From: Maribacter sp.
GTDB lineage: Bacteria > Bacteroidota > Bacteroidia > Flavobacteriales > Flavobacteriaceae
Direction: 5' to 3'
Assembly (NCBI GenBank): GCA_011050675.1
Contig: DRFI01000016.1
Location: 59,932-123,931, forward strand
DNA length: 64,000 bases
Below the pieces are notes generated by a model. The model searched no databases and had not been told where the DNA came from. It saw only the letters and a program-made list of their open reading frames with translations. Of this stretch, positions 34,360 to 64,000 are shown in pieces (position 1 is the stretch's first letter; each line of letters starts with the position of its first letter). A program made the translations under genes and the position numbers.

Positions 34360-36297
34360 TTATAATGGTGTATACGTAATCGTTAACTTCCCTTCTTTAA
34401 CTTGTTTATCAGCATCAATTCCTATTCTGTAAGCAGGTGCGCCTTCCCTTAAATGCTTAACAGGAACAACTTCATCTTTTATTTTAAAAGTAAAACCTTC
34501 ACTCTTAATTTTAGCTTTTACCTTATAGTTTTCTGATTCTAAAATTACCGTTGTATCATCGACAATTTTATATGAATTCAGTGTCATTATAGAGGAGCCA
34601 AAACTAATGGGTCCCGTTGCATTAAATTGATCTTCTATAATAATGGTGCCCACACCTGATTTATCGTTTGTGATGGTTCTAGTCAAGGTCTGTAGCATAG
34701 GTAGTTCGTAGGCTGGTAAAATATTCATTACCACCTTGTCCATTACCTCTGTGAATTCGGTTTCGGTAATAATACCTTTAAATTCAATACCATTAGATTG
34801 TAATTTGTTATTAATCAATGGAACGGGATGACCCCATGAACTTCTTGCCTTATTATCAGGTGAAAATGCACCAGCTCTGTAAGATGGTGCTCCTATATCT
34901 CCGGTTATCATATCGGTATCTAAGAAAATCTCATAAGTACTTACATCACTATGATTATGGTTCTCTGCGTTATGACCAGCCTTTACTGCTATGGAGAATG
35001 GTGTTTCTTGTTTTCCTCTGGATATCACCATACCAAAATCATTAAAATAGGTATGATCAGGCATTTCGGAAATCATACTATTATTGCTGACTTCAAACAT
35101 TTTAGGATGTTGCCAAGCTATTAATTGTTCAGCCGCTTCCTCCATTCTAATTTCAGTGGGTATAATAGCTCCGTAGTAATTTGCAGATAAAACATTGGCA
35201 AAGTTGCTCCCTTTACTTGAGATTGAAGAAACCCCATCGGCAAAAGGCGCACAGGTTCCGTTCTGAATTTCAAAGCTTTGAGGAAAGTTCCCCACATTCT
35301 TCATTTTCTCCGCATTATTGAATGCGAACAAATCAATTCTTCCTTCTGTAAAATCGTATAAAATTTGAGCCAAATACAAATAATGACCAAAGCCATATCC
35401 CCAATACCCTAAACCTTCTGAACAGTACCCATCTTCTCCAAACCCACTTAAGTAATGATTCATACTATTTAAAGCGGAACCAACTACTGCAAGTCTATCA
35501 TCATAACTTTTAGAGTTTGTTATGGTCGCTAAAATGGCTCCACTGGTACAAACAGAGTTCCAGTTACTGGTACTTTTAATCCATTTGTTATTCTCGTCTA
35601 AATATTTTGTACTATGTAAATAGGAATCTGTAATTCGTTTTTGAAGTTGCCCGTTAATTTCTTCCTTTAATTCCTTTGGTAGTTTATCTTCTAATAGATA
35701 ATTAGCCAATGCCAATACAGACCCAAACTTACGTGCCCCTAAATCTATTGAAACTCGCCTACCTTCTAACACACCATTATTTTCATCATCGTGATTTGGA
35801 TGTAACCACGACTTCATGTTCAATATGGCATTGCTATAGTTTTTTATCTGAGTTAAAAACCTCCCTTGGTCCTCCAAACATTCTGCTAAAATAAAATGTT
35901 CTAAACGGTCCATAGTCCTGTAATATTTTGGTTTATAAATACCTCTATTACCTTCCCTATTCGCTAATCTATAAATGCTATCTGAAATAGGAACTTCTGG
36001 TTTTATATCCAATAACGCATTCGCTTTTATCAGATAATCCTTTCCTGATTTGGTTTGCCCAATATTGTTCCAATACGCTCTATCTGAAATCTTGGAAGCG
36101 GGTTGAAATGCTTCTTTAGGCATCACCTTTTTAAGTATTTCTATTTGTTCAGAAGATGGGTAGATAGTATCGCTATCTGCAAATTTTAGATAAATCGACA
36201 TATCTAAATATACAGAAGAAGTTTGCCCTATAATATTTTGGTTTAGAATAACCATCGCCATAAAGCAATATATAAGTTGAAGCGTTTTTTTCATCAT
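34360..36297 (-). CDS. Heparinase II/III-type protein, second architecture
   Basis: The 645-residue protein has a signal peptide (ending near IIGQ), a shorter toroid (about 90-370; STSNWNSVCTSGAILA, GEDGYCSEGLGYWGYG) and a heparinase II/III-like sandwich with the metal motif KAGHNAENHNHSDVSTYEIF. It differs from the two 940-residue paralogues and probably acts on oligosaccharides or another linkage. It is the first gene of the downstream PUL operon, after the terminator at 36365-36406. Confidence 0.78.
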   Translation of the reverse strand: MMKKTLQLIYCFMAMVILNQNIIGQTSSVYLDMSIYLKFADSDTIYPSSEQIEILKKVMPKEAFQPASKISDRAYWNNIGQTKSGKDYLIKANALLDIKPEVPISDSIYRLANREGNRGIYKPKYYRTMDRLEHFILAECLEDQGRFLTQIKNYSNAILNMKSWLHPNHDDENNGVLEGRRVSIDLGARKFGSVLALANYLLEDKLPKELKEEINGQLQKRITDSYLHSTKYLDENNKWIKSTSNWNSVCTSGAILATITNSKSYDDRLAVVGSALNSMNHYLSGFGEDGYCSEGLGYWGYGFGHYLYLAQILYDFTEGRIDLFAFNNAEKMKNVGNFPQSFEIQNGTCAPFADGVSSISSKGSNFANVLSANYYGAIIPTEIRMEEAAEQLIAWQHPKMFEVSNNSMISEMPDHTYFNDFGMVISRGKQETPFSIAVKAGHNAENHNHSDVSTYEIFLDTDMITGDIGAPSYRAGAFSPDNKARSSWGHPVPLINNKLQSNGIEFKGIITETEFTEVMDKVVMNILPAYELPMLQTLTRTITNDKSGVGTIIIEDQFNATGPISFGSSIMTLNSYKIVDDTTVILESENYKVKAKIKSEGFTFKIKDEVVPVKHLREGAPAYRIGIDADKQVKEGKLTITYTPL

Positions 36298-50166: not shown

Positions 50167-53100
50167 ATGATTAGACTAATCAAACTTTCTAAATGGAAAC
50201 TACAAACCATGATACCTTTATTGGTAGGGTTTGTAGTTTTATGTACAAATCAAGCATTTGCGATTTCAGCTAGTTCAACTCTAACTAGCGACGTACACTT
50301 ATTAAACGCAGAACAACAACTTACAGTTACAGGTAACATTGTAAGTAGTGATGACGGCATGGGACTTCCTGGGGTTGCCGTTGTAGTAAAAGGTACAACG
50401 ACAGGTACAGTTACCGATTTTGACGGTAATTACTCTATAACCGTTCCCTCTGCCGATGCTATTCTTGTAGTATCCTATTTAGGATTTATAAAACAAGAAA
50501 TTGCAGTTGGATCAAAAAGTGAAATCAATATATCACTAGCGCCAGATACAACTGCTTTGGATGAAGTTATTGTTGTAGGTTATGGTACTGCCAAAAAAGA
50601 AACCTTAACTGGTTCTGTAGAACAGGTAAAGGCAGAAGCTTTTGAAGATTTGGCTGTTGGTAGTCCTGCACTAGCGCTTCAAGGTAGAACTCCTGGTCTG
50701 GTAGTTACTCGTACCTCGTCAAGACCTGGAGATGAAGGTGTCAACTTCCTAATTAGAGGGGCTTCTTCAATCAACGGTATAGAGCCACTAATTGTTATTG
50801 ATGGTATTCCTTCAATTAATTCTTCTTCTTTCAATGATATGAACCCTAATGATATTGAAAGTATTAGTGTATTAAAAGGTGGGTCTGCATCTGTATATGG
50901 GTCACGTGCCGCTGGTGGTGTTATTTTAGTGACCACAAAAAAAGGTAAAGGAAAAATTAAAATTGACATCAGCACTGTTTCTAGAGTTGGTACTATAGGT
51001 ATACGCCCACCAACACCTACAATGTCTCAATATGGTCAATTATATGCTGCTGCAGCTCGTGAAGATATTGCTTCTGGAAAACCGCCTAGATATTTCTTTT
51101 GGAACGATCTTGAAACTGTAGATAGAATTGCATCTGGTGAAGAAGGTTTTTATGATTTACCTATAAATGGTAATATCTGGCTAGGTAACGCCCCTAGATT
51201 CGATGAAATGTTCGGTAATTCTTATTCTAGCCAGCATAACATTAGTATATCTGGAGGTACAGAAAGTAGCAACTTTCGTATTTCTGCAGGGTATGATAAC
51301 AATGTTGGTGGTCTAAAGGTTGCAGACGATAGTTCTGATAGATATAATTTCTCAATGAACTATGGTGCTGATATAAGCGACAGACTTAGTATAAATACTA
51401 ATGTTACTTATTTCAATAATGATTTTTCTGGACCTTCTGGAGGTTTAGGAAGAGAAGCTGCAACTTATGATGCACCACTTTTTCCTACTTATAATGCAGA
51501 CGGACAATATTATGCAAACTTTGGAGGTGATCTAATTACAGGTGACAGAAACGGTGTTGCTCAAGTAATTGACGGTGGTCGTGAGAACAAAACCGTTGAG
51601 CAATTTAAAATATCCGCACTTGCTAAATATAAATTTACAGATCATTTAGATTTTACTGGTTCTTACGCAATTAGTAGACAAAATAGTGAATACCAAACTT
51701 ATGCTGTTTCGGTTCCACTTTACAGTTGGGGAGGAAGTTTCTCTAACAATATAAACAACACCAATTTCATTCAAGAAGGCACTGGTCCTGACAAAAATGA
51801 TGGCAACATTACTTACAAAAATTACAAAGGGGCTTTAAACTATTCTAATCAGTTTGGTGATCACAACTTTTCTGGTCTTTTAGCTATAGAAGCTGAGAAG
51901 AATGATGTGAACGAATATAATATTAGACGAAATGGCTTTGTTGATTACGGTGTTTATGATATCAATTTAGGTGCAACAGACCAACTTGTTACAACTTCTG
52001 GCGGTGGTACCTCATGGGGATTCTTTGGGTATATCGGTAGATTAAATTATGATTACAAAAGCAAATACCTATTAGAAGTACAAGGAAGACGAGATGGTTC
52101 ATCAAGATTCGCAGAAGGTTCTAAATGGTCTAACTACGGTAGTATTTCTGGTGGTTGGGTAATTAGTGCTGAAGAATTCCTTAATGAAAGTAACCTTATT
52201 TCATTTTTGAAACTAAGAGGTGGTTACGGTGAGTTAGGTAGTACTTCTGGTATTGGAGATTTTAGTTATTTATCTACTGTTGGTTTTGGAACCACTGTTT
52301 TTGGACAAACAAATGCAGGACAACAAGCAACGTCTAGAGCAAGTAGCCTGTTTAGTAGCAACACTACTTGGGAAAGAATTGTAACCAAAGAAATTGGTGT
52401 TGACTTTAGGTTATTGAACAGTAAAATATTTGGTTCTTTTGATCTTTATCAAAAAGATAATGTTGGTATGTTAGTGAGAGGTATCGAGACAGATCTTTTA
52501 GGTACTGCAACTCCATTTACCAATATTGGTACTTTAGAGACAAATGGATGGGAAGCAATGCTAGGTTACCAAGGTAAAATTGGTGAAGTAGATTTTTCAG
52601 TAAGTGCAAACATGAGTGATTCTAGAAACGAAATCACTGAATATGATGGGGCTCAAACTATATTTGAGAATTTAAACGCTGCTGAAGACGGAGAGAATAT
52701 TTTAGGGAAACCAATTAACTCTTTCTATTTATGGGAAACCGATGGATATTTTGACTCACAAGCTGAAGTTGATGCATATTATGCTAGTTTAAACGAAGGT
52801 GGAATTTTACCTTCTCAGAGCTCTAACGATGCTTTACGTCCTGGTGATATGAAAGTGGTAGATTCTAATGGAGATGGCACACTAGACAACGAAGATTTAA
52901 CGTATAGTGGCGATGCAGCACAACATTATGTATATGGTTTTAATTTTGATATAAAATATAAGAATTTTGACCTTAGTGCATTCTTTCAAGGTGCTTTAGA
53001 ACAGAATATCTATAGAACAGGATACTTCGCTCAACCTTTTCAAGCAGAATGGCAAAACCAATCTAACACATGGTTAGGTAGAACTTGGACAGAAGATAAC

Positions 53101-53409
53101 AGAAATGCAGAATTCCCTAGATTAACTACGCAACGTGGCCTATCTGCATGGAACTATAGAAGTAAAGATCATATTTTACAGAATAATAGATATATGAGAT
53201 TAAAGTCTCTTATCATAGGGTATAATTTTAAAGATTTACAAATAGGAAAAACACCCATTGATAATATTAGAATTTATTTTTCAGGAAATGATTTGTTTGA
53301 ATTAACCAGTGTAAAAGATGGTTATGACCCTGAATTTCAAGCGAGCTCTAACAATAGTGCCTACCCATTTATGCGTACTTGGGCATTAGGTTTAAAAGTT
53401 TCACTTTAA
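50167..53409 (+). CDS. SusC/RagA-type TonB-dependent outer-membrane transporter
   Basis: The 1080-residue protein has a signal peptide (about 10-33), a CarboxypepD_reg-like domain (about 55-130; GVAVVVKGTTTGTVTDFDGNY), a TonB-box/plug start (DEVIVVGYGTAKKETLTGSV) and a 22-strand barrel to the C-terminus. NFLIRGASSINGIEPLIVIDG is the typical SusC plug segment. It imports oligosaccharides across the outer membrane with energy from TonB and works with the next gene product as lid. No N-terminal STN signalling domain is present, consistent with control by the hybrid sensor rather than an anti-sigma factor. Confidence 0.93.
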   Translation: MIRLIKLSKWKLQTMIPLLVGFVVLCTNQAFAISASSTLTSDVHLLNAEQQLTVTGNIVSSDDGMGLPGVAVVVKGTTTGTVTDFDGNYSITVPSADAILVVSYLGFIKQEIAVGSKSEINISLAPDTTALDEVIVVGYGTAKKETLTGSVEQVKAEAFEDLAVGSPALALQGRTPGLVVTRTSSRPGDEGVNFLIRGASSINGIEPLIVIDGIPSINSSSFNDMNPNDIESISVLKGGSASVYGSRAAGGVILVTTKKGKGKIKIDISTVSRVGTIGIRPPTPTMSQYGQLYAAAAREDIASGKPPRYFFWNDLETVDRIASGEEGFYDLPINGNIWLGNAPRFDEMFGNSYSSQHNISISGGTESSNFRISAGYDNNVGGLKVADDSSDRYNFSMNYGADISDRLSINTNVTYFNNDFSGPSGGLGREAATYDAPLFPTYNADGQYYANFGGDLITGDRNGVAQVIDGGRENKTVEQFKISALAKYKFTDHLDFTGSYAISRQNSEYQTYAVSVPLYSWGGSFSNNINNTNFIQEGTGPDKNDGNITYKNYKGALNYSNQFGDHNFSGLLAIEAEKNDVNEYNIRRNGFVDYGVYDINLGATDQLVTTSGGGTSWGFFGYIGRLNYDYKSKYLLEVQGRRDGSSRFAEGSKWSNYGSISGGWVISAEEFLNESNLISFLKLRGGYGELGSTSGIGDFSYLSTVGFGTTVFGQTNAGQQATSRASSLFSSNTTWERIVTKEIGVDFRLLNSKIFGSFDLYQKDNVGMLVRGIETDLLGTATPFTNIGTLETNGWEAMLGYQGKIGEVDFSVSANMSDSRNEITEYDGAQTIFENLNAAEDGENILGKPINSFYLWETDGYFDSQAEVDAYYASLNEGGILPSQSSNDALRPGDMKVVDSNGDGTLDNEDLTYSGDAAQHYVYGFNFDIKYKNFDLSAFFQGALEQNIYRTGYFAQPFQAEWQNQSNTWLGRTWTEDNRNAEFPRLTTQRGLSAWNYRSKDHILQNNRYMRLKSLIIGYNFKDLQIGKTPIDNIRIYFSGNDLFELTSVKDGYDPEFQASSNNSAYPFMRTWALGLKVSL

Positions 53410-53451
53410 TATAATTGAGAAGTAGTTAACACATCATAAAATAATAAACAG

Positions 53452-55239
53452 ATGAAAAAAATAATATATATAATAATACCATGTTTAATGGTCTTCTTTA
53501 CATCATGTGAAGACGAGTTTATAGATTTGGATCCGCCTGCGTCTATTACAGACCAGGTATATTACACCGAAGCCGAACATTTTTTAACAGGCTCTAACAG
53601 ATTTTACACCAACTTAATGACTTGGAGGTTTGATCAAGGCATATACGCCGATCACGGTTCTGATTTAGTTGGTTATACCGAAGATAGTGGTATGCAAGAA
53701 TATAGTAGAGGTGATACTCGAGCTCCAGAATCCGATGGTTATTATTCAAGTCCTTATGCAGCTATCAGAGACATGAATCTTTTACTAGAACGTGCGGAAG
53801 TTTATGAAGGTGACGAAAGTATTGTTGCATATGTTGCAGCTACTAAGTTTCATAGAGCTTATCAATATTTTAATCTAGTACAACGTTTTGGGGGTGTTAC
53901 TTTGGTAACAAGATCATTAGACGTTGGTGCAGAAGAACTAGATGCTCCTCGTAACAGCAGATATGAAGTTGTTGCTCAAATTTTGGCTGATTTAGATGAA
54001 GCAATTGCAGGATTACCTACAGAGCAACAGATATCCTCAGAAGATAAAGGTAAAATCAGCAAATGGGCTGCTATGGCTTTTAAAGCCGATGTTTTATTAC
54101 ACGAAGCTACTTGGATGAAATACGTTGGCACTACTACAGATGGCGACGGTGTTGCTATTGGTGCAGGTAGCGCAGGCTTTGATGCTTCTAAAGTAAATCC
54201 TTATTTACAAGAAGTTGTAACGCTTACTAAAACAATAATGGACCAAGGTGGTTTTGAACTTTGGAACTATAATGATGTTTTAGATAATTTAAGTTCAAAC
54301 TTCTTATTTAATCTAGAAGATGGTGGCTCTAACCCTGCGGGATTAGACAAGGCTACCAATAAGGAATTCATTTTTTACAATAAATACGATTTTACATTTA
54401 GACAAGCTGGTGACTTACTAAGTCATGTTTATGAAGGTAGGGTTAAACCTAGTAGAAAAATGATGGACCTATTCTTAAATATCGATGGTTTACCTATAGA
54501 TCAGTCTCCTTTATTTCAAGGTTATGAAAATACACCTGATGAGTTTCAAGATAGAGATTACAGAATGACAGCTTATTTTACCTACCATAAAAATCTTGGT
54601 GAAATACCTCAAAACGGAGATGTAAAATTAAATGGCACCAATAATTTTGGATATTTCAATGCAAAATTCATGAGTTGGAAATGGGGTACCGATGAAGCAT
54701 ATAGAGCAACAAAAACTGAAGCTTATGACATGCCTTTTATTCGCTTGGCAGAAGTTTATTTAATGTATACTGAGGCTTTATACGAGCTAAATGGTAGTCT
54801 TACAGATGCTCAAATGGATGAGTCTATAAACTTGGTGAAAGCTAGAGCAGGATTACCAGCAATCTCTAATTCTTTCTTAGCTACCAATAATATGGATATA
54901 GAGACAGAAATTAGAAGAGAGCGTACTATTGAGCTTTATGCAGAAGGTGCAACTAGGTTCAATGATTTAAAAAGATGGGGAATTGCAGAAGAAGAATTGG
55001 GTGAAACTATTTATGGTGCCGTAATTGAAGGTACTGTTTATGAAGATAACCCAGACTTATATACCCCTGGTGGATATGGATTTGGAGAGGGCGTTACTAC
55101 AACTGGTGTTGGTGAAAGAAGAGCGATAATAGTTCAACCATCATCAACTCGTAATTTCTCTAGAGATGATTATTTATTTCCAATACCTACTTCTCAAATA
55201 GGTTTAAACAATAATATAAACCAGAATCCTGGTTATTAA
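53452..55239 (+). CDS. SusD/RagB-type glycan-binding lipoprotein
   Basis: The 595-residue lipoprotein (FFTSCED, Cys19) has the SusD fold: TPR-like helices with AATKFHRAYQYFNLVQRFGGVTLV and a C-terminal RRERTIELYAEGATRFNDLKRWG motif. It caps the SusC barrel and binds the glycan at the surface. It starts 42 bases after susC and ends at a strong terminator, so the pair forms its own operon. There is no SusE/F-like gene after it. Confidence 0.92.
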   Translation: MKKIIYIIIPCLMVFFTSCEDEFIDLDPPASITDQVYYTEAEHFLTGSNRFYTNLMTWRFDQGIYADHGSDLVGYTEDSGMQEYSRGDTRAPESDGYYSSPYAAIRDMNLLLERAEVYEGDESIVAYVAATKFHRAYQYFNLVQRFGGVTLVTRSLDVGAEELDAPRNSRYEVVAQILADLDEAIAGLPTEQQISSEDKGKISKWAAMAFKADVLLHEATWMKYVGTTTDGDGVAIGAGSAGFDASKVNPYLQEVVTLTKTIMDQGGFELWNYNDVLDNLSSNFLFNLEDGGSNPAGLDKATNKEFIFYNKYDFTFRQAGDLLSHVYEGRVKPSRKMMDLFLNIDGLPIDQSPLFQGYENTPDEFQDRDYRMTAYFTYHKNLGEIPQNGDVKLNGTNNFGYFNAKFMSWKWGTDEAYRATKTEAYDMPFIRLAEVYLMYTEALYELNGSLTDAQMDESINLVKARAGLPAISNSFLATNNMDIETEIRRERTIELYAEGATRFNDLKRWGIAEEELGETIYGAVIEGTVYEDNPDLYTPGGYGFGEGVTTTGVGERRAIIVQPSSTRNFSRDDYLFPIPTSQIGLNNNINQNPGY

Positions 55240-55261
55240 GATAATTGTGTTGAGTTAGTTT

Positions 55262-55298
55262 AAAGGCAGTTATACGTTAAGTATAGCTGCCTTTTTTT
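55262..55298. terminator. Terminator between susD and the hybrid sensor gene
   Basis: AAAGGCAG (55262-55269) pairs with CTGCCTTT (55287-55294), with an inner TATAC/GTATA stem and a run of T after it. It serves the convergent susD and sensor genes. Confidence 0.88.
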
Positions 55299-55337
55299 AT
55301 GTTTAAACAATTTACTATTCATTTTAAATGAACGTTA

Positions 55338-58300
55338 TTACTTATCATCCTCAGTTATTTCGCTTTTATTACCTTCCATATATTCTGTAGGTGTTACGTT
55401 AAACAGCTCTCTAAAAGTTTTACTAAAGTATGCTGTTGAATTAAATCCGCACATATGGGTAACTTCCTTAATAGAATAAGAGTTCTTCTCTAATAGTTCA
55501 GCTGCATATCTTAATCTTATTGTTCTTATAAAATGACTAGGATTATTTCCTGTTAACGTATTAATTTTTCGGTAGAATTGAGATCTACCTATACCCAATT
55601 CCTTTAAAATATCATCTTGCTTAAAATCTTCATCATCTACATTGTCTAACACAACTTTGGTAGCTTTATCCAAAAACACTTCGTCCATATTGTTTGTGGT
55701 AACCTCACTTGACGGGAAAATACCTCCAATTTCCGAGAAGCGTTTTCTTAGTCTCTTCTTTGCTTCAATGAGATTTCTAATTCTCGATTTTAAAACACTA
55801 GTAACAAATGGTTTTGACAAATATGCATCTGCCCCATTATCATAACCACTTACCCTATCAATTTCAAGACTTCTTGCTGTTAGTAGTATTATGGGGATAT
55901 GGCAAGTTTCAAATTCGGTCTTTAATAATCTGCACATTTCAAATCCGTCCATTTTCGGCATCATTACATCGCTAATCACCAAATCTGGATAACGTTTCTT
56001 AACCATTTCTAGTCCTTCCTCTCCATTTTTTGCTTGAAGTACCTTATACTTATCTTGCAAATCATTTTTTAAATGTTGTCGTAATTCTTTGTTATCCTCT
56101 ACCAATAAAATAGTTGGTTTTTCTATTTCACTATCGCTATTTGGATTAGGTAAAACTAAATTCTCATCATCTGCAATGTACATTTCATATTCAACAGACT
56201 TCATTGAATTAATCAAGAATTCATTTTTGACACTTTCAACCTCTACCGGTGCAGACTTACTATCCAATGGTAGTCTTACAACAAACTTGCTACCTAAACC
56301 ATATTCACTTTCTACAAAAATTTCGCCACCATGTTTTTCTACCAAAGCTTGTGTAAAATTAAGTCCAATTCCGGTTCCCGATTTGGTAATATCGATATGA
56401 TAAAAACGAGAAAAAATATTCTTAAGCTGCTCTTTATCTAATCCAACACCAGAATCTTTTACCGTAATCTCCACAAAATCTCCAATCATTTCTTTCTTAA
56501 GAAAGAACAATCTAGACGAGCTTTTCTTCTGTGCTATCTTTTTGATGGAAACCGTAATCTCACCACCTGCATTTGTGAATTTTAAAGCGTTGGAAATTAA
56601 GTTGGTAATTATTTTTTCTACTTTATCAAAATCAAACAAGAAAGTAATATCCTCAGATTCGGATTCAAACCTATAATCTATTTCCTTTTTTGTTGCCAGA
56701 CTTAAGAATAATGAAAAAATATCTTCACTGAACTTAACGATATCTCCCTTTTCCAATTGAAGCGGTGCCATACCTACATCCATCTTTCTATAGTCCAATA
56801 ATTGATTTACCAAATGCAACAGTCTACGCGCACTACGCTGTATGGAAATAGCGGAAGATTTTACTTCTTCTGGATTATGTGTATAGCTAGACAAAATTTT
56901 ATCTACAGGATTCATAATCAAAGTAAGCGGTGTTCTAAACTCATGAGAAACATTGACAAAGAATTGAAGCTTCATTTGATCTAATTCGTGCTCTTGGGCT
57001 TCTTGAACTTTTTGGGTGTAATACCGTAAAACCAAATATGAACCCAACAAGCCTAACAAAGTATAAATTAAGTATGCCCACCAAGTTTTCCATGGAGGGG
57101 AAAGAACTTCAAAATTTACAATAGCCGCCTCAGCTTTATCCCAATCACCATCTAACGACGCTTTTACTTCAAACACATATTTACCAGAACTAAGGTTAGA
57201 ATAACTTACTTCTCTTTTTGCCCCTATTGTTTCAAAGTCATTGTCCAACCCTTTTAATTTATAAGAATATCGCACCCTTTCAGGATTTTCAAAATGGAGT
57301 GCTAAAAAATCGAATGCTACATAGTTCTCATCATAATTTAATTTTAGGTTTTCTAAGTCTGCTACCCTATCCTTTAGCAATACCCTGTCATTAACCGTAT
57401 CGCCAACGACAATAGGCTTATTATTTAAGGTAAACTGGGTTATGGTGGGTCGTAATGCTATAGAAGTTCTTAGCGTTATATCATTTGGATTAAAAATATT
57501 GAAACCATTAATACCTCCTATTAAGATTCTACCATCCATGGTTTTATCTATAGACTTACTTTGGTATTCAGGACCTTGCAAACCATCATGAATATTAAAA
57601 TTCTTTATTTGGTCTGTTTCTGGGTTTAACAAGGATAATCCACTTTTTGTCGATACCCAAAAATTATGATTATCATCTTCTTGTATGCCCACTACCAGGT
57701 TATTGGGTAACCCCTCTTTAGAAGAATAAGATTTCAACACATTAAAATCAGCATCAAGTTTATATATTCCTGTATCCGCTCCTATCCAAATATTTCCTAA
57801 TTGGTCTTCTGAGATATGATTTATAAGATTATCTTCTATACCCGGTTTTTTAATTTCCTTAAAAGTAAGTGTCTCTGGAATTCTATTCTCTAACTGATTA
57901 AGGTCTATATAATTTAAACCTAAAGATGTGCCGATTAACAACCTATTTCTAGAATCAACAAACAAAAAAAACACAAAATTACTGGCTAGACCATTTTCTT
58001 TTCCCGCAACATTTTTAAAATTGTGAAACTTTTCATTTTTAGGATCAAATAGACTTAAGCCCTCTGTTCGAAGCCCTAACCATATTCTATCATCCTTATC
58101 CTCTACACCAGACCAGACAGAGTTCTGCCCTATCGAATTTATTTCCGATTCGTTATGCAAATATCTTTTTACATTGTAGGTATCTGGATTAAATCTATTT
58201 AACCCACCATCTAACGTACAGACCCAAATTTGACCATCATTAGACTCAAAAGTATAGAGTATTCTGTCTGAACTTATACTATTGGTATTATTTGGATTAT

Positions 58301-59531
58301 GAGGAAAATGCTTAAATGTATTATTCTCTTTATCAAACAGGTTTAATCCACCATTATAAGCACTTATCCAAATTCGCTCTTTTGAGTCTTCTAAAACAGA
58401 TTGTACAATTTTTTCATTAAGTCCTTCTGGGTTTCCTGGTTGATAATAATAATGTCCAAAAGCATATTGCGAAGGGTCTAATTTACTAACACCCTTATCA
58501 TAGCTCCCTATCCAAAATATACCATTGCTATCTTCATAAATTTTAGATGGTTTGTTATTTGGTAAAGAGAAAGAATCCGAAATATTATTGACTAGATTAC
58601 GAACAACTTTTTCCTCATTTTTATCTAATATAAATATTCCATTCCCATCTGTAGAAGCCCATATATTACCATCTGCATCTAAATGCATATCTCTAATAGC
58701 TACATCCTTTTCTGAAGTAAAGGATTTGTGTGAAAAGATATTATTTGTTCTATCCCAATAAATTATATTAGATAGATTATTTCCTATCCAAAAATCATTA
58801 TCCGCATCAACAAAAACGTTCTTATGTATATGGTTAAGCTCGTAATTATTTTTACTTTCTATTAAAATACGGTCAAAGTTATCGCGCTGCCTATTATATT
58901 TATTTAAGTATTCACCGTTAGTTCCAATCCAAATAACACCGTTTTGATCTTTGAGTATTACGTTAACAATATTATTATCTAATGAATTTAAATTAGAATC
59001 ATCATTTAGGTAATAATAGAATTTTAAGTCAGCTACATCTGTAGTAAAATCTTCAAGAATAATTTTAATAACCCCATTATTAGTAGCTACCCATAAAGCG
59101 TTATTTTCTTTATCAAATAGTAATGAATTAATAAATTTACGTGGATTATTTGATAGTGATAGTTGCTTATATAAATCTACTCGTAAAAAACTATTTGTTT
59201 TCTTATTGTAATAGTTGAGACCATTATTCGTACCTATCCATAAATTACCATCTGCCCCCTCAACTATAGCATTTATTCTATTATTACTAAGAGAGCTTGG
59301 GTCATTTAAAATTGATTTATAAATTTCAAACTCATAGCCGTTATATTTATTAAGACCATCTATAGTACCAAACCATATAAATCCTTCAGAATCTTCAAAA
59401 ATGGTAAGACAAGTACTGCTAGACAAACCGTCTACCGTATCTAAGTTTTCAAATTTGAAATTATTAAACTGACTTTGAGAAAGTATACCATTTAAGCAAC
59501 ATAGGACAATTAGAAGTATCCTTTTATTCAT
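55338..59531 (-). CDS. Hybrid two-component system sensor-regulator (HTCS)
   Basis: The 1397-residue protein combines a signal peptide, a periplasmic two-propeller sensor (about 30-690, many DxxGxxWIGT repeats), a Y_Y_Y domain (about 700-790), one membrane helix (about 800-825), HisKA with the phospho-His in NVSHEFRTPL, an HATPase (GVGLDKEQ, GTGIGLN), a receiver with Asp in LVISDVMMPKMDG and a C-terminal AraC DNA-binding domain (FIRTIRLRYAAELL, EVTHMCGFNSTAYFSKTF). Such proteins bind an oligosaccharide in the periplasm and switch on the PUL. It lies convergent to susD, and it is the expected regulator of susCD and the GH88 operon. Confidence 0.93.
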   Translation of the reverse strand: MNKRILLIVLCCLNGILSQSQFNNFKFENLDTVDGLSSSTCLTIFEDSEGFIWFGTIDGLNKYNGYEFEIYKSILNDPSSLSNNRINAIVEGADGNLWIGTNNGLNYYNKKTNSFLRVDLYKQLSLSNNPRKFINSLLFDKENNALWVATNNGVIKIILEDFTTDVADLKFYYYLNDDSNLNSLDNNIVNVILKDQNGVIWIGTNGEYLNKYNRQRDNFDRILIESKNNYELNHIHKNVFVDADNDFWIGNNLSNIIYWDRTNNIFSHKSFTSEKDVAIRDMHLDADGNIWASTDGNGIFILDKNEEKVVRNLVNNISDSFSLPNNKPSKIYEDSNGIFWIGSYDKGVSKLDPSQYAFGHYYYQPGNPEGLNEKIVQSVLEDSKERIWISAYNGGLNLFDKENNTFKHFPHNPNNTNSISSDRILYTFESNDGQIWVCTLDGGLNRFNPDTYNVKRYLHNESEINSIGQNSVWSGVEDKDDRIWLGLRTEGLSLFDPKNEKFHNFKNVAGKENGLASNFVFFLFVDSRNRLLIGTSLGLNYIDLNQLENRIPETLTFKEIKKPGIEDNLINHISEDQLGNIWIGADTGIYKLDADFNVLKSYSSKEGLPNNLVVGIQEDDNHNFWVSTKSGLSLLNPETDQIKNFNIHDGLQGPEYQSKSIDKTMDGRILIGGINGFNIFNPNDITLRTSIALRPTITQFTLNNKPIVVGDTVNDRVLLKDRVADLENLKLNYDENYVAFDFLALHFENPERVRYSYKLKGLDNDFETIGAKREVSYSNLSSGKYVFEVKASLDGDWDKAEAAIVNFEVLSPPWKTWWAYLIYTLLGLLGSYLVLRYYTQKVQEAQEHELDQMKLQFFVNVSHEFRTPLTLIMNPVDKILSSYTHNPEEVKSSAISIQRSARRLLHLVNQLLDYRKMDVGMAPLQLEKGDIVKFSEDIFSLFLSLATKKEIDYRFESESEDITFLFDFDKVEKIITNLISNALKFTNAGGEITVSIKKIAQKKSSSRLFFLKKEMIGDFVEITVKDSGVGLDKEQLKNIFSRFYHIDITKSGTGIGLNFTQALVEKHGGEIFVESEYGLGSKFVVRLPLDSKSAPVEVESVKNEFLINSMKSVEYEMYIADDENLVLPNPNSDSEIEKPTILLVEDNKELRQHLKNDLQDKYKVLQAKNGEEGLEMVKKRYPDLVISDVMMPKMDGFEMCRLLKTEFETCHIPIILLTARSLEIDRVSGYDNGADAYLSKPFVTSVLKSRIRNLIEAKKRLRKRFSEIGGIFPSSEVTTNNMDEVFLDKATKVVLDNVDDEDFKQDDILKELGIGRSQFYRKINTLTGNNPSHFIRTIRLRYAAELLEKNSYSIKEVTHMCGFNSTAYFSKTFRELFNVTPTEYMEGNKSEITEDDK

Positions 59532-60311: not shown

Positions 60312-60504
60312 ATGACGCTAAAAATTGATATATTTAAGTAATTTTAATCCTTTGCAAACTTTCTTAATGCAAAATACCGAAAGCATTCGCTTTGAACCTT
60401 GAAGAGAAAACTGGTAATTTTTAACGAAGAGGATAAGCGATAAAGTCCGCGCCTAAGGGTGTGGACTTGCTTTATAAAGCAATATAACTCCCAATATCAA
60501 TAAA

Positions 60505-60534
60505 AAAACCTCGATATTAGTGAATCGAGGTTTT
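60505..60534. terminator. Terminator after the 139-residue XRE gene
   Basis: AAAACCTCGAT (60505-60515) pairs with ATCGAGGTTTT (60524-60534) around an 8-base loop. On the minus strand it follows the stop of the XRE gene at 60558. Confidence 0.82.
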
Positions 60535-60557: not shown

Positions 60558-60977
60558 CTATTTATTTTTCAATAGCTCTTCCAAATAAATGATTTTATCT
60601 TTTTCAGCTTGTAACAATCGCTCATATAAATTTTTATTCTCTTCGAACAATTCTACTACTTTGTCCAAAGGGTTAAATGTTGGATAGATTCCTTGATTAA
60701 AACTATTTCCTTGCGAGGCACTATTATCATAAAAGTTATTAAAGTAGTTGATTACGTTCTCTTCAGAAAAACTTTCAATTCCTTCTTTGGTAACACCTAA
60801 AATTTTGGCTACTTCTTGGATTTTCTCATCTTCAAGGGTCTCACTCTTCTCCAATGAAGAAACGCTCTGTTGGCTGATACCCAGTTCCTCGGCAAGGGTT
60901 TCCTGCTTCATTCCCCGTAGCTCCCTGATCCTAGCGATTTTCCGGCCTATATGGTTGGGTTTTGTTTCTGTCGTCAT
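60558..60977 (-). CDS. XRE-type HTH regulator with coiled-coil tail, divergent from the sigma-dCas12f operon
   Basis: The 139-residue protein has an HTH at about 10-70 (KIARIRELRGMKQETLAEELGISQQSVSSLE) and a C-terminal amphipathic helix (about 105-139; VVELFEENKNLYERLLQAEKDKIIYLEELLKNK) that should dimerise. It is common in Bacteroidota genomes, but its place is telling: its start is 172 bases from the sigma factor start in the opposite direction, with an inverted repeat between. It is a good candidate for the repressor or activator of the RNA-guided operon. Confidence 0.82.
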   Translation of the reverse strand: MTTETKPNHIGRKIARIRELRGMKQETLAEELGISQQSVSSLEKSETLEDEKIQEVAKILGVTKEGIESFSEENVINYFNNFYDNSASQGNSFNQGIYPTFNPLDKVVELFEENKNLYERLLQAEKDKIIYLEELLKNK

Positions 60978-61106: not shown

Positions 61107-61172
61107 ATGGAAAAATTCCTTGCCCAATATAACCTAAAGGTAGTTCCTTATGAAGCCATCCAAAGACCGTAA
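61107..61172 (+). CDS. Possible 21-residue leader peptide overlapping the sigma gene start
   Basis: ATG at 61107 opens a 21-codon frame (MEKFLAQYNLKVVPYEAIQR plus Pro) ending at 61172, which overlaps the sigma start at 61150 by 23 bases in another frame. Overlap of this sort can couple translation. Its coding nature is not proven. Confidence 0.25.
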   Translation: MEKFLAQYNLKVVPYEAIQRP

Positions 61173-61944
61173 ATATGAACTTTTAAAAAAGGGCTCCACT
61201 TCCGCCCTATCGGAAATCCATGCCATTTACCATCGACAAATCTACTGGCTGGGCAGGAGCCTGATCGAGGACAGTTTCGTCGTGGAGACCTTGGTACAGG
61301 ATACGTTCCTGAAATTGTGGATCAACAGGGAACGTATCGAATCGCCCCAACACATCTTTAATTTCCTGCGGTTCGTGATGGCCAGGGAATGCCGTTATTT
61401 CTATGCAAGGCCCGCCAATAATTTCTCCAGGAAAGTGCATTCCCTCGAAAACTTCGACAACTATCAGGACTATATGGCCGGTTTCGATCCCGTGGACGAT
61501 ACCGAACATCTGGAAGATCAAAATAGCGAACAAGGGAACTTTGATAGGGTCAAAAAGGTATTGACCGTACTCGAACCTGAACGCAGGCGCTTGATCGAGC
61601 TCTGCCTGAAATACGGCTTCCGGTACAAGGCCATTTCCAGCGTTATGGGAAAAAGTATTAACGAAACCAGCCGTGAAGTGAAGTTCGCCATAATTGATAT
61701 CAAGACCATCATTGACCAAGGACAGATACTGAAAAGTAAAAAGAGTTCTCCAAATGCACTAAAGGTTCAAGGTAGCATGACCAAGGAACAGGCACGGATA
61801 TTGAAACTCCGATGTGAAAAACAATATTCCTTCGCCGCCATCGCCACCGAGCTCCAACTGTCCCAAAAAGAGGTACATAGCGAGTTCATGGTCGCGTACA
61901 GGTTCTTACAGGACAAACACCAACAGGAACTAAAATCGGCCTGA
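61150..61944 (+). CDS. ECF-type sigma factor with an extra C-terminal HTH, partner of dCas12f
   Basis: The 264-residue protein has a sigma-2-like region (about 17-86; EIHAIYHRQIYWLGRSLI, LVQDTFLKLWINRERI, FNFLRFVMARECRYFY) and a sigma-4-like HTH (about 137-188; LTVLEPERRRLIELCLKYG, YKAISSVMGKSINETSREVK). Unlike ordinary ECF factors (170-200 residues) it continues with a third helical unit (about 209-254; MTKEQARILKLRCEKQYSF, IATELQLSQKEVHSEF) that reads like a second sigma-4 HTH. It has no anti-sigma or SusC partner. The dCas12f gene begins one base after its stop, so the two are made together; a complex that brings RNA polymerase to a guided site is the likely role. Codons are GC-richer than in the PUL. 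Confidence 0.85.
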   Translation: MKPSKDRKYELLKKGSTSALSEIHAIYHRQIYWLGRSLIEDSFVVETLVQDTFLKLWINRERIESPQHIFNFLRFVMARECRYFYARPANNFSRKVHSLENFDNYQDYMAGFDPVDDTEHLEDQNSEQGNFDRVKKVLTVLEPERRRLIELCLKYGFRYKAISSVMGKSINETSREVKFAIIDIKTIIDQGQILKSKKSSPNALKVQGSMTKEQARILKLRCEKQYSFAAIATELQLSQKEVHSEFMVAYRFLQDKHQQELKSA

Positions 61945-61945
61945 T

Positions 61946-63043
61946 ATGGAAAAGTCCACGCTAAAACTCACCCGAAAGATACAGCTATTGGTCGACCTGC
62001 CCACCAAGGAGGAACGCAAGGAGGCATTGGACCGGCTGTACCAATGGCAGAACAGATGCTTTCGTGCCGCCAATCTCATCGTTTCCCATCTCTACGTACA
62101 GGAAATGATCAAGGAATTCTTTTACCTTTCGGAGGGGATAAAGTATAAACTGGCCGATGAAAAGAAGGACGAACTTGGTATCCTGCAACGTTCACGTATG
62201 AATACCACCTATAGAGTGGTATCCGACCGTTTCAAGGGCGAGATTCCAACGAACATACTGTCCAACCTGAACAAGACCTTGATCACTTCGTTCAACCAAA
62301 ACAGGCCCGAATATTGGAGAGGGGAACGCTCGCTCAAGAACTTCAGGAGGGACATGGCCTTTCCCTTCGATATGGAGGGCATCAGCGGACTGTCCTATGA
62401 TGAAAATAAAAGGGCGTTTTGCTTCCGTTTGTTCCAGATTCCTTTCAAAACGTACTTGGGCAAAGATTTTACGGACAAGCGAAGGCTGTTGGAACGGGTC
62501 ATCACCGGCGAGACCAGGCTTCGGACCTCACATATAAAATTAAGGGAGGGCAAGATATTCCTGTTGGCGGTATTCGAGATCGAAAAGGAGGAACATTCCC
62601 TACGGCCAGAACTGATTGCCGAGGCTTCCCTGTCCCTTGAATATCCCATTGTCGTCAAGACGGGAAATGCCAAGCTTACCATCGGGACCCGGGAGGAGTT
62701 CCTCTACAGAAGATTGGCCATCCAAGCGGCCCTTAAAAGGGCACAGGTCGGGGCGACCTTTTCCAAATCGGGAAAGGGGTCAAAACGAAAACTGAAGGCG
62801 GTTGAAAGGCTCCGCAGAAATGAAAGTAATTATGTACAGAACAGGATACATGTGTACAGTAGAAGGCTGATCGATTTCTGTATAAAACACCGCGCGGGAA
62901 CGCTGATCCTATTGGACCAAGGGGAGAAAATCGAAATTGCCAATGAGGAAGGGTTCGTACTACGGAACTGGAGCTATTACGAGTTGATGGAAAAGATAAG
63001 GTACAAGGCGGAGAAAGTAGGTCTCGAGGTCATTATGGATTAG
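61946..63043 (+). CDS. Nuclease-dead, truncated Cas12f/TnpB-like RNA-guided protein (dCas12f)
   Basis: The 365-residue protein has a helical N-terminal part (WED/REC-like, 1-220) and a RuvC-like C-terminal part. The segment KSGKGSKRKLKAVERLRR (274-291), then NYVQNRIHVYSRRLIDF, is the helical insert typical of Cas12f and TnpB, and NWSYYELMEKIRYKAEKVGL (341-360) matches the stretch before the zinc finger. The RuvC-I Asp of the GIDLG motif aligns with Ser230 (ASLSLEYP), the RuvC-II Glu of xIExL with Leu323 (LILLDQ), and translation stops at 365, before the TSxxCxxCG zinc finger and RuvC-III Asp. DNA cleavage should thus be lost while RNA-guided binding can remain. Usual Cas12f proteins are 400-550 residues. 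There are no cas1, cas2 or tnpA genes nearby. Confidence 0.85.
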   Translation: MEKSTLKLTRKIQLLVDLPTKEERKEALDRLYQWQNRCFRAANLIVSHLYVQEMIKEFFYLSEGIKYKLADEKKDELGILQRSRMNTTYRVVSDRFKGEIPTNILSNLNKTLITSFNQNRPEYWRGERSLKNFRRDMAFPFDMEGISGLSYDENKRAFCFRLFQIPFKTYLGKDFTDKRRLLERVITGETRLRTSHIKLREGKIFLLAVFEIEKEEHSLRPELIAEASLSLEYPIVVKTGNAKLTIGTREEFLYRRLAIQAALKRAQVGATFSKSGKGSKRKLKAVERLRRNESNYVQNRIHVYSRRLIDFCIKHRAGTLILLDQGEKIEIANEEGFVLRNWSYYELMEKIRYKAEKVGLEVIMD

Positions 63044-63130
63044 GAAAACTGTTCGAGGGTGCTTGTACACCCGTAAGGTGGGGTAAACAGTCACACTCAC
63101 TGAATGCTACTAGCATATACAACGCGTGGG
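63044..63130 (+). ncRNA. Candidate single guide RNA of the dCas12f-sigma system
   Basis: The segment starts at the dCas12f stop codon. ACTGTT (63048-63053) pairs with AACAGT (63086-63091) and encloses a hairpin GGGTG (63057-63061) with CACCC (63068-63072). It ends in TGAATGCTAC (63101-63110), very near the GAATGCAAC end of Cas12f1 repeats that I remember. The next 20 bases, tagcatatacaacgcgtggg (63111-63130), would be the guide. The scaffold may begin inside the dCas12f coding sequence, as TnpB omega RNAs do. No CRISPR array is present, so this is a single-guide locus. The exact ends are a guess. Confidence 0.6.
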
Positions 63131-63424
63131 CTCTCTTATTTTAATCGGGCCTGATTTTACTTGAAGTTTAAAAATTCCAAGAAGGAAAGGAATTGACGGG
63201 GCTTTGTTTTTTTTACATCAAAAAAAAGCCTGTTTTCAGTACTTCCGATAAGTTTTGCTGTAAATCCCCGTAAAAGTGAATCTTGACGACCTCCCGAAAG
63301 GTAGGGCATAAACAATAAAAAAACGGCCGGTGAAAAAGAAAAATGACAAGGATTCTTTTTAAATATTCCTTTTAATCGCTTGAATTATTTTGAATAGTTC
63401 CCATGATTGAAAATCCATTATTCT
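63131..63424. other. Non-coding stretch downstream of the guide RNA candidate
   Basis: No gene is seen. An AT-rich hairpin with GGCTTTGTTTTTTTT (63199-63213) and AAAAAAAAGCC (63220-63230) may end the guide transcript. The segment 63240-63330 (AATCCCCGTAAAAGTGAATC, CTCCCGAAAGGTAGGG) is GC-richer and looks structured but I do not recognise it. Confidence 0.3.
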
Positions 63425-63483
63425 AAGGATTTGTCGCAAATCCTTCCCTAAAAATGGGCGTTCACGGTCCATTTGTCGCAAAT
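63425..63483. repeat. Two palindromic ATTTGTCGCAAAT repeats
   Basis: AAGGATTTG-TCG-CAAATCCTT (63425-63445) is a perfect 9-bp stem around three bases, and ATTTG-TCG-CAAAT (63471-63483) is a second, shorter copy 42 bases to the right (centre to centre). The role is unknown; a protein-binding site or a mobile-element end are both possible. Confidence 0.6.
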
Positions 63484-63660
63484 CGTAGAAGGTCTGGAAT
63501 TTCGTTAATCCATAAACAACTGAAATACAAGTATTTACTATTTAATAGAAGTGCCTAACATCGCGCAGCGTGTTACCCTCTTGCTACTCCCCTTAGATTT
63601 GCATTGTTGTTTATATAGAGATTTTTACGTGGTGAATTTTTATATTTAATTATCTAACTT

Positions 63661-63850
63661 TTCATCGGGGAATACCCTCAGTAATTATGAATAACGACCA
63701 AAACCGGTAAGGGCGAATTATACGCTATTCAAAGCTTCGGGCTTATGCATTATTTGATAAAAGCCCTTTTCGGTTATTCTGGACCGGCATCAGATGGAAA
63801 TTCAGGTTTTTAGACCTATTATCAGGGGTTCGATGGCAATCTGGGATTTT
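63661..63850 (+). ncRNA. Candidate bridge RNA of the IS110 element
   Basis: The leader of the transposase gene folds into three units: a small hairpin GGG/CCC (63667-63677), a long stem AACCG..AAGGGC (63702-63714) with GCCCTT..CGGTT (63763-63775) that encloses an AAGC/GCTT hairpin and unpaired loops, and a stem CAGAT (63791-63795) with ATCTG (63839-63843) that encloses AGGT/ACCT. This is the layout of IS110-group bridge RNAs, with target- and donor-binding internal loops. Which loop binds what cannot be shown without the element ends. Confidence 0.5.
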
Positions 63851-63876
63851 GGTCTTAATCCTTTAATTTTATCATT

Positions 63877-64000
63877 ATGCAAAACCAGAACTTTGCGTAC
63901 TTCATCGGTATTGATATATCGAAGAGTACTTTTGACGTAGCTATCTTGAATGAAGATAGGACTACCTCTTATGTTTTTGAGAATTCCAAAAAAGGAACGA
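63877..64000 (+). CDS. IS110-family transposase (DEDD recombinase), N-terminal part only
   Basis: The frame from the ATG at 63877 stays open to the window edge (41 codons). YFIGIDISKSTFDVAILNED matches the RuvC-like start of IS110 transposases, with the first catalytic Asp at residue 13. These enzymes move the element with a bridge RNA that pairs with donor and target DNA. The rest of the gene and the right end of the element lie outside the window. Confidence 0.85.
   Translation, partial: MQNQNFAYFIGIDISKSTFDVAILNEDRTTSYVFENSKKGT

Follow-up and report, generated by a model that had tools for sequence, protein, structure and literature searches.

A Maribacter gene pair with a downstream guide RNA as a predicted RNA-guided sigma factor system of the dCas12f-sigmaE kind

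The DNA analyzed in this study, hereafter the window, is a stretch of 64,000 nucleotides from Maribacter sp. (assembly GCA_011050675.1, contig DRFI01000016.1, positions 59,932 to 123,931). It contains the gene of an ECF-type sigma factor, the gene of a likely nuclease-dead Cas12f-like protein (dcas12f) and, directly downstream of the latter, a guide-RNA gene. Judging from their sequences, these genes very probably constitute a dCas12f-sigmaE system, in which the guide RNA would lead the sigma factor and RNA polymerase to matching DNA. The first-pass annotation had already proposed an RNA-guided sigma factor; this central claim is correct and describes a system that is already known. The guide-RNA gene was absent from that annotation. 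Relatives carry a structured leader RNA, designated R1 here, and the guide of the window, GCGTGGGCTCTCTTATT, corresponds to the 3′ arm of one of its hairpins. The features are listed in Table 1.

Table 1. Features in the window that belong to, or lie beside, the predicted dCas12f-sigmaE system
Feature	Position	Strand	Basis
Degenerate R1 copy; apical hairpin kept (GUCCGCGCC/GGUGUGGAC)	60353-60515	+	Model R1, 57.1 bits, E 2.4e-8
HTH_3 regulator gene, between degenerate leader and sigma gene	60558-60977	-	Pfam
ECF-type sigma factor gene, 264 aa	61150-61944	+	ORF; NCBIfam, Pfam, and PDB matches
Likely nuclease-dead Cas12f-like protein gene, 365 aa	61946-63043	+	ORF; PDB and PADLOC matches; relatives
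Guide-RNA scaffold, three covarying stems, 3′ end GCATATACAAC	63053-63123	+	Alignment, covariance model, covariation
Guide segment GCGTGGGCTCTCTTATTTT, from 63124; 3′ end provisional	63124-63142	+	Variable stretch after conserved scaffold

The two open reading frames were recovered exactly where the first-pass annotation had placed them, on the plus strand and separated by one base. The sigma factor scored 60 bits against the NCBIfam model sigma70-ECF (cut-off 42.9), and Pfam located the ECF core at residues 19-186 and region 4_2 in two stretches, the better one at residues 209-246. This better stretch is a region-4-like HTH near the C-terminus and lies outside the ECF core. The 365-aa protein matched PADLOC Cas12f with an E-value of 4.1e-51 and NCBIfam guided_TnpB with 60.8 bits, which is under the cut-off of 100; a Pfam search of this protein gave nothing significant. 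When the protein was aligned with the Cas12f 9nzo, the RuvC-I Asp (VGVDLG) corresponded to Ser228, a residue at least 90% conserved among 32 sequences. The column of the RuvC-II Glu depended on the alignment and fell, by position, on Leu323 or Gly326; the window protein has no Glu either way, and under the Gly326 option many relatives would retain the Glu. Hence, of the two replacements proposed at first reading, Asp by Ser was confirmed, and Glu by Leu applies under one alignment option only. No intact triad appeared in the alignment, and the active RuvC triad that characterizes type V-F is absent from the window protein. The protein stops right after a YKAEKxGxE segment, which is also the end of its alignment to the Cas12f and TnpB chains (415-508 aa); RuvC-III and the zinc finger were indeed missing, as had been noticed before, because the protein ends before both. 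From these residues and this end point, the 365-aa protein is likely nuclease-dead. Its AlphaFold model was poor (pLDDT 53).

A sequence search of the PDB gave one full-length relative of the 365-aa protein (residues 1-364, E 2.2e-187), namely the chain "Nuclease-deactivated Cas12f" of 9n9c, 9n9m, 9n9o, and 9n9q. With the sigma factor as the query, the only match at E <=0.01 was chain C of 9n9q, "RpoE" (261 aa, E 1.1e-99). The entries 9n9c and 9n9m, both released on 2025-12-24, are titled as a dCas12f-gRNA complex and as a dCas12f-gRNA-DNA complex with a partial R-loop, respectively. Since both window proteins match solved PDB chains, the pair is regarded as a new member of the dCas12f-sigmaE systems. 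The mechanism that had been proposed for it is right in kind, by homology, as 9n9q holds close relatives of both proteins and 9n9m is titled as a partial R-loop complex. A 2025 preprint from the Sternberg group reportedly described RNA-guided transcription by dCas12f with sigmaE and a 5′-G motif; in that system, the start sites are said to be set by the distance from the R-loop, and susCD is said to be among the targets.

The solved dCas12f chain is that of Allomuricauda (Flagellimonas) taeanensis (locus L032), with identity over 364 residues. The window has the same gene pair in the same order as this bacterium, with dCas12f 75-76% and sigma 57% identical, and a scaffold of the same kind lies downstream of dcas12f. 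A homologous and likely dead Cas12f, an adjacent homologous sigma factor and, by sequence and covariation, a guide RNA encoded beside dcas12f, as expected for a dCas12f-sigmaE system, are all present in the window; it differs in its guide, and a target of this guide was not found in its own genome. With respect to the Cas12f nucleases 9nzo, 8hr5, and 7wju, the window protein is homologous from about residue 84-110 to its end, whereas it has no RuvC-I Asp, no RuvC-III, and no zinc finger, and the window has a single guide-RNA unit with no array-like repeat at 63040-64000. We also considered dCas12f on plasmids; the five records obtained were only 24-29% identical and were named TnpB or transposase, and this candidate was rejected.

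Relatives were collected in one scan, in which 221 stretches were confirmed; the best 80 of these gave 79 loci, which represent closer relatives only. The sigma gene was found upstream of dcas12f in 78 of these 79 loci, although it was cut by the contig start in L003 and L061. The exception was L043, whose contig begins 30 bp before dcas12f. Because the linkage holds in 78 of 79 loci among the best 80 of 221 stretches, it is not due to chance, which settles the earlier concern that relatives might never be linked to the sigma gene. In the same 79 loci, dCas12f (65-84% identity) was better conserved than the sigma factor (46-65%).

The guide RNA was recognized from a stretch of about 70 nt that is conserved right after the dcas12f stop codon in most loci; this stretch ends with the sequence given for the scaffold in Table 1 and is followed by a variable stretch. 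The start of the window guide recurs in many relatives. A covariance model of the guide RNA, R2, was built from the window and 31 of the 79 loci; it matched the window at 63053-63141 with 95.8 bits. Matches were found in the window and in 78 of the 79 loci (best 80 of 221 stretches), and in the one miss, L062, the sequence ends 14 nt after dcas12f. In the stems, 96.7% of the cells were paired and 9 of 18 pairs had changed on both sides, a result reached by 0 of 500 shuffles. The single-sequence fold was no better than shuffles (z -0.42), and the support for the structure is therefore the covariation. Several loci carry arrays of 2-6 guide units. In L076, L079, L080, L044, and L067, a single dcas12f is followed by such units with differing guides, which would suit a system with more than one target.

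R1 is a conserved leader of about 173 nt. It precedes the sigma gene in 35 of the 79 loci (best 80 of 221 stretches), at a distance of 0.5-1 kb in L069, L071, and L073. The covariance model was built from 25 of the 35 leader loci and used instead of an early regular expression, which caught only 7 leaders; matches of 158 bits or more were termed strong, and those in L033, L035, and L030 were weak (30-43 bits). In 67 copies (64 distinct), 97.8% of the cells pair and double changes occur at 27 of 43 pairs, in an alignment that was fitted to the model and hence leans towards the structure; an unfitted alignment of 25 copies showed double changes at 18 of 43 pairs. The covariation score of the 67 copies was 0.364 versus 0.136 when shuffled (0/500), and sliding destroyed the signal. 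Furthermore, TTTT was found within 10 nt after R1 in 57 of 65 distinct copies, the window being left out. For the 3′ arm of the apical hairpin, the terminal strand CCACGCC is an alternative pairing partner, and the first eight positions of this pairing are formed in 39-43 of 43 distinct arm/strand pairs. Among the nine positions, two covary clearly beyond shuffles (2/500 and 0/500), one does so weakly (15/500), five hardly vary, and the ninth is unpaired (3/43). R1 has the layout of an attenuator and may function as one.

Rfam searches with five loci (L031, L026, L250, L243, and L107) at permissive E-values gave no match to R1; only chance-level hits elsewhere were obtained, and R1 was not assigned to a known RNA. 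No described susC leader RNA was identified among the matches listed in a literature search, as far as their accessible text goes. The idea of a phage element was also discarded, as positions 8700-9210 of L031 had no match in phages.

The genomic setting of R1 was examined with susC neighbours called by tblastn using the susC of the window. In the first 11 dCas12f genomes, there were 28 sense copies, of which 16 adjoin the sigma gene, 9 precede susC (<=1.5 kb), and 3 do neither; a 29th match, antisense and of 28.5 bits, was dropped. Of the other 11 genomes, an Allomuricauda-like group, 10 carried R1, with 19 copies between them: susC follows 12 of these copies and sigma-dCas12f follows 1, contig ends truncate 4, and the remaining 2 are weak and without susC. 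In a family survey of 199 genomes, R1 was detected in 38 and dCas12f (E <=1e-60) in 9; R1 was present in 9 of 9 genomes with dCas12f versus 29 of 190 without it, in a comparison that ignores kinship and in which the window's own copy is degenerate. From the genomes without dCas12f, 21 of 45 R1 copies, mostly stronger ones, were examined. A susC gene lay within about 2.5 kb in 19 of the 21, the exceptions being L241 and L242, in which no susC follows. Around these 21 copies no guide RNA was found, and the hairpin arm was largely of the same GGGCGTGGGCTCTCTTAT type. Since R1 stands before susC even where dCas12f is missing, its distribution probably exceeds that of the dCas12f system, with the guides as copies of it. 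In G041, G043, G155, and other genomes without dCas12f (L241-L260), R1 appears to be an undescribed regulatory RNA.

A small ORF ending in VFDILFxKKPKNPx or similar was observed between the leader and susC in L113, L112, L114, L118, L218-L223, L227, and L230, and one of this type was seen by eye in L057. Among the leaders from dCas12f genomes, 11 of 26 had the motif, as did 4 of 21 among the others, and the small ORF was thus rejected as a constant part of the leader. By eye, the Echinicola-type guides (AAGAATCCGATCTAA) resemble the 3′ end of this ORF.

The correspondence between guide and leader was observed in many relatives. When the guide was compared with the leader arm of the same locus in 35 strong-leader loci, 13-16 of 16 positions matched in 19 loci and 12 of 16 in 3; in the remaining 13, no same-locus guide reached 12/16. 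In addition, GCGTGGGCTCTCTTAT was searched with <=2 mismatches in 11 further Allomuricauda-like genomes, whose fetched sigma loci have no strong leader. This gave 30 matches versus 6 for the reversed-pattern control: 13 were guide RNAs, 14 were in R1 leaders on the leader's strand, and 3 were elsewhere, so that 14 of the 17 non-guide matches in these 11 genomes lie inside R1 leaders. Among the 12 non-sigma leaders of the first 11 genomes, 7 (L105, L107, L112, L116, L120, L121, and L122) had a same-genome guide that matched the arm with a shuffled p <=0.0025. The other five, which have no matching arm, were L113 (site outside the leader), L118 (11/16, p 0.15), L114, L117, and L119, the last three of which also have no susC within 1.5 kb. 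A co-change was seen in G005, in which the unusual arm GGCGTGTCATCCGACT (L120) upstream of susC is met by an equally unusual guide, GGCGTGTCATCCCACT, at 15/16. Of the 16 sigma-linked leaders, 11 were tested, the other five being copies already in the 35-locus comparison; an arm match at p <=0.005 was obtained for 3 of the 11 (L097, L106, and L115). The sigma-linked leaders of G001, G002, G004, G008, G009, and G010 showed no significant arm match, and L100 of G004 was borderline (12/16, p 0.05). A G is present at the adjacent site in 64 of 65 distinct R1 leaders (window left out), and the same G is also in a stem.

Only one guide was found in A. taeanensis. It matches 13/16, after a G, at a site between a leader copy and susC; the site lies 196 nt past this copy, and the first ATG of the susC ORF follows about 260 bp further on. 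At 3 mismatches, there were 8 non-self matches versus 12 in the control; the site hence rests on its position and not on the number of matches. Another class of guides, CCTTCCCTTAAAGATTAA (L069, L071, L073, L075, L122, L030, and L066), resembles a second hairpin, CCTTCCCTGAAGATTGGCGTC. In L122, this hairpin lies after the leader and before susC and matches a same-genome guide at 13/16, and by eye it can also be recognized ahead of the sigma gene in L030 and L066. It is possibly a second leader family.

In the genome of the window itself, the copy in Table 1 is the only R1 found, and its 3′ terminator strand is not recognisable. It was not supported as the target of the window guide, with a best match of 10/16 (shuffled-guide p 0.10). 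Searches of the genome with the 17-mer and <=3 mismatches gave 3 non-self matches versus 5 in the control, and those with the degenerate consensus gave 6 versus 13, the six all lying in open stretches of at least 164 codons; with a 5′-G plus 12 guide bases and <=1 mismatch, the guide itself was the only match (control 0). The region at 50167-59531, some 1.6 kb ahead of the sigma gene, carries a susC-like gene (TonB plug), a susD-like gene and, on the opposite strand, the gene of a hybrid two-component regulator (Reg_prop, HisKA, receiver, and HTH_18). Neither an R1 leader nor a good guide match was found upstream of the susC-like gene. A target in this susC/susD region was rejected; apart from the guide itself, the best matches in the window were 12/16 at 34655 on the minus strand and then 11/16 at several places. 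The nearest reading is that the own-genome target has been lost, has diverged, or lies in an assembly gap. At the contig end (63877-64000), an ORF start reads MQNQNFAYFIGIDISKS by eye, which resembles the N-terminus of an IS110-type transposase; these 41 aa gave no Pfam match.

It is somewhat unlikely that the system in this particular genome is a remnant or no longer has a regulon, with the proteins kept and the target gone or in an assembly gap; this reading is compatible with the main explanation, whose subject is the mode of action. The missing target, the degenerate leader, and an assembly of 31 contigs in which the contig ends with the window speak for it, whereas both frames are open, a full-length homologue (P0002) is 92% identical, the guide scaffold is intact, and the completeness is given as 99.99%.

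As a dCas12f-sigmaE system, the window would work as follows. dCas12f would be loaded with RNA from 63053-63142, bind a matching DNA site in an R-loop, and deliver the adjacent sigma factor, and thereby RNA polymerase, to the bound site, with initiation downstream of the target site. In relatives, the sites would most likely be the 3′ arm of the apical hairpin of R1, preceded by G, where R1 stands ahead of susC genes and of the system's own sigma-dCas12f operon; initiation at R1 would drive transcription of susC(D), with feedback on the sigma-dCas12f system. Tentatively, and with some doubt, we suggest that the guide copies the switch strand of the leader. This strand may pair either with the 5′ arm or with the terminator strand followed by a U run, and transcripts begun inside R1 would miss half of the terminator, which could free susC(D) and the operon of the system itself from attenuation.

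It seems improbable that dCas12f and the guide form a plain repressor or roadblock on the leader DNA, with the sigma gene encoding a separate, ordinary ECF factor. Such repressors derived from TnpB do exist, since TldR, according to the accessible text of PMC13418256, is a RuvC-inactivated TnpB relative that acts as an RNA-guided transcription factor and repressor; the window protein is likewise a RuvC-inactivated TnpB relative, and many of the sites matched by guides fall within a conserved leader RNA, at which an R-loop could obstruct elongation. However, the TldR class is disfavoured for the window because 78 of 79 loci (best 80 of 221 stretches) show linkage to a sigma gene, and the solved entry 9n9q has both proteins; in the accessible text of the TldR paper, the term sigma factor occurs 0 times, whereas the gene pair of the window includes one.

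Initiation guided by DNA binding is the reading that we prefer. It is very improbable that the guide instead acts mainly on RNA, pairing with the leader's 5′ arm or terminator strand and shifting the fold with DNA targeting secondary: the guide-matched arm is one side of two mutually exclusive stems, and the 5′ arm of the window leader (GAUAAG...GUCCGCGC) can pair with the guide over 8+6 bp including wobbles (by eye) and is kept although the 3′ arm no longer matches, but Cas12f and TnpB proteins bind DNA, 9n9m is titled as a gRNA-DNA complex with a partial R-loop, and in A. taeanensis the site matched by the guide is not within the leader.

With the window, a newly known mode of transcription start gains a member, guide RNA included. 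R1, which in the family of the window lies before susC with or without dCas12f and one strand of which is copied by many guides, represents a candidate natural target class and offers a testable link between RNA-guided initiation and the attenuation of nutrient uptake. If this link is true, a naturally occurring RNA-guided sigma factor would be coupled to a riboregulator of nutrient uptake that spans the family.
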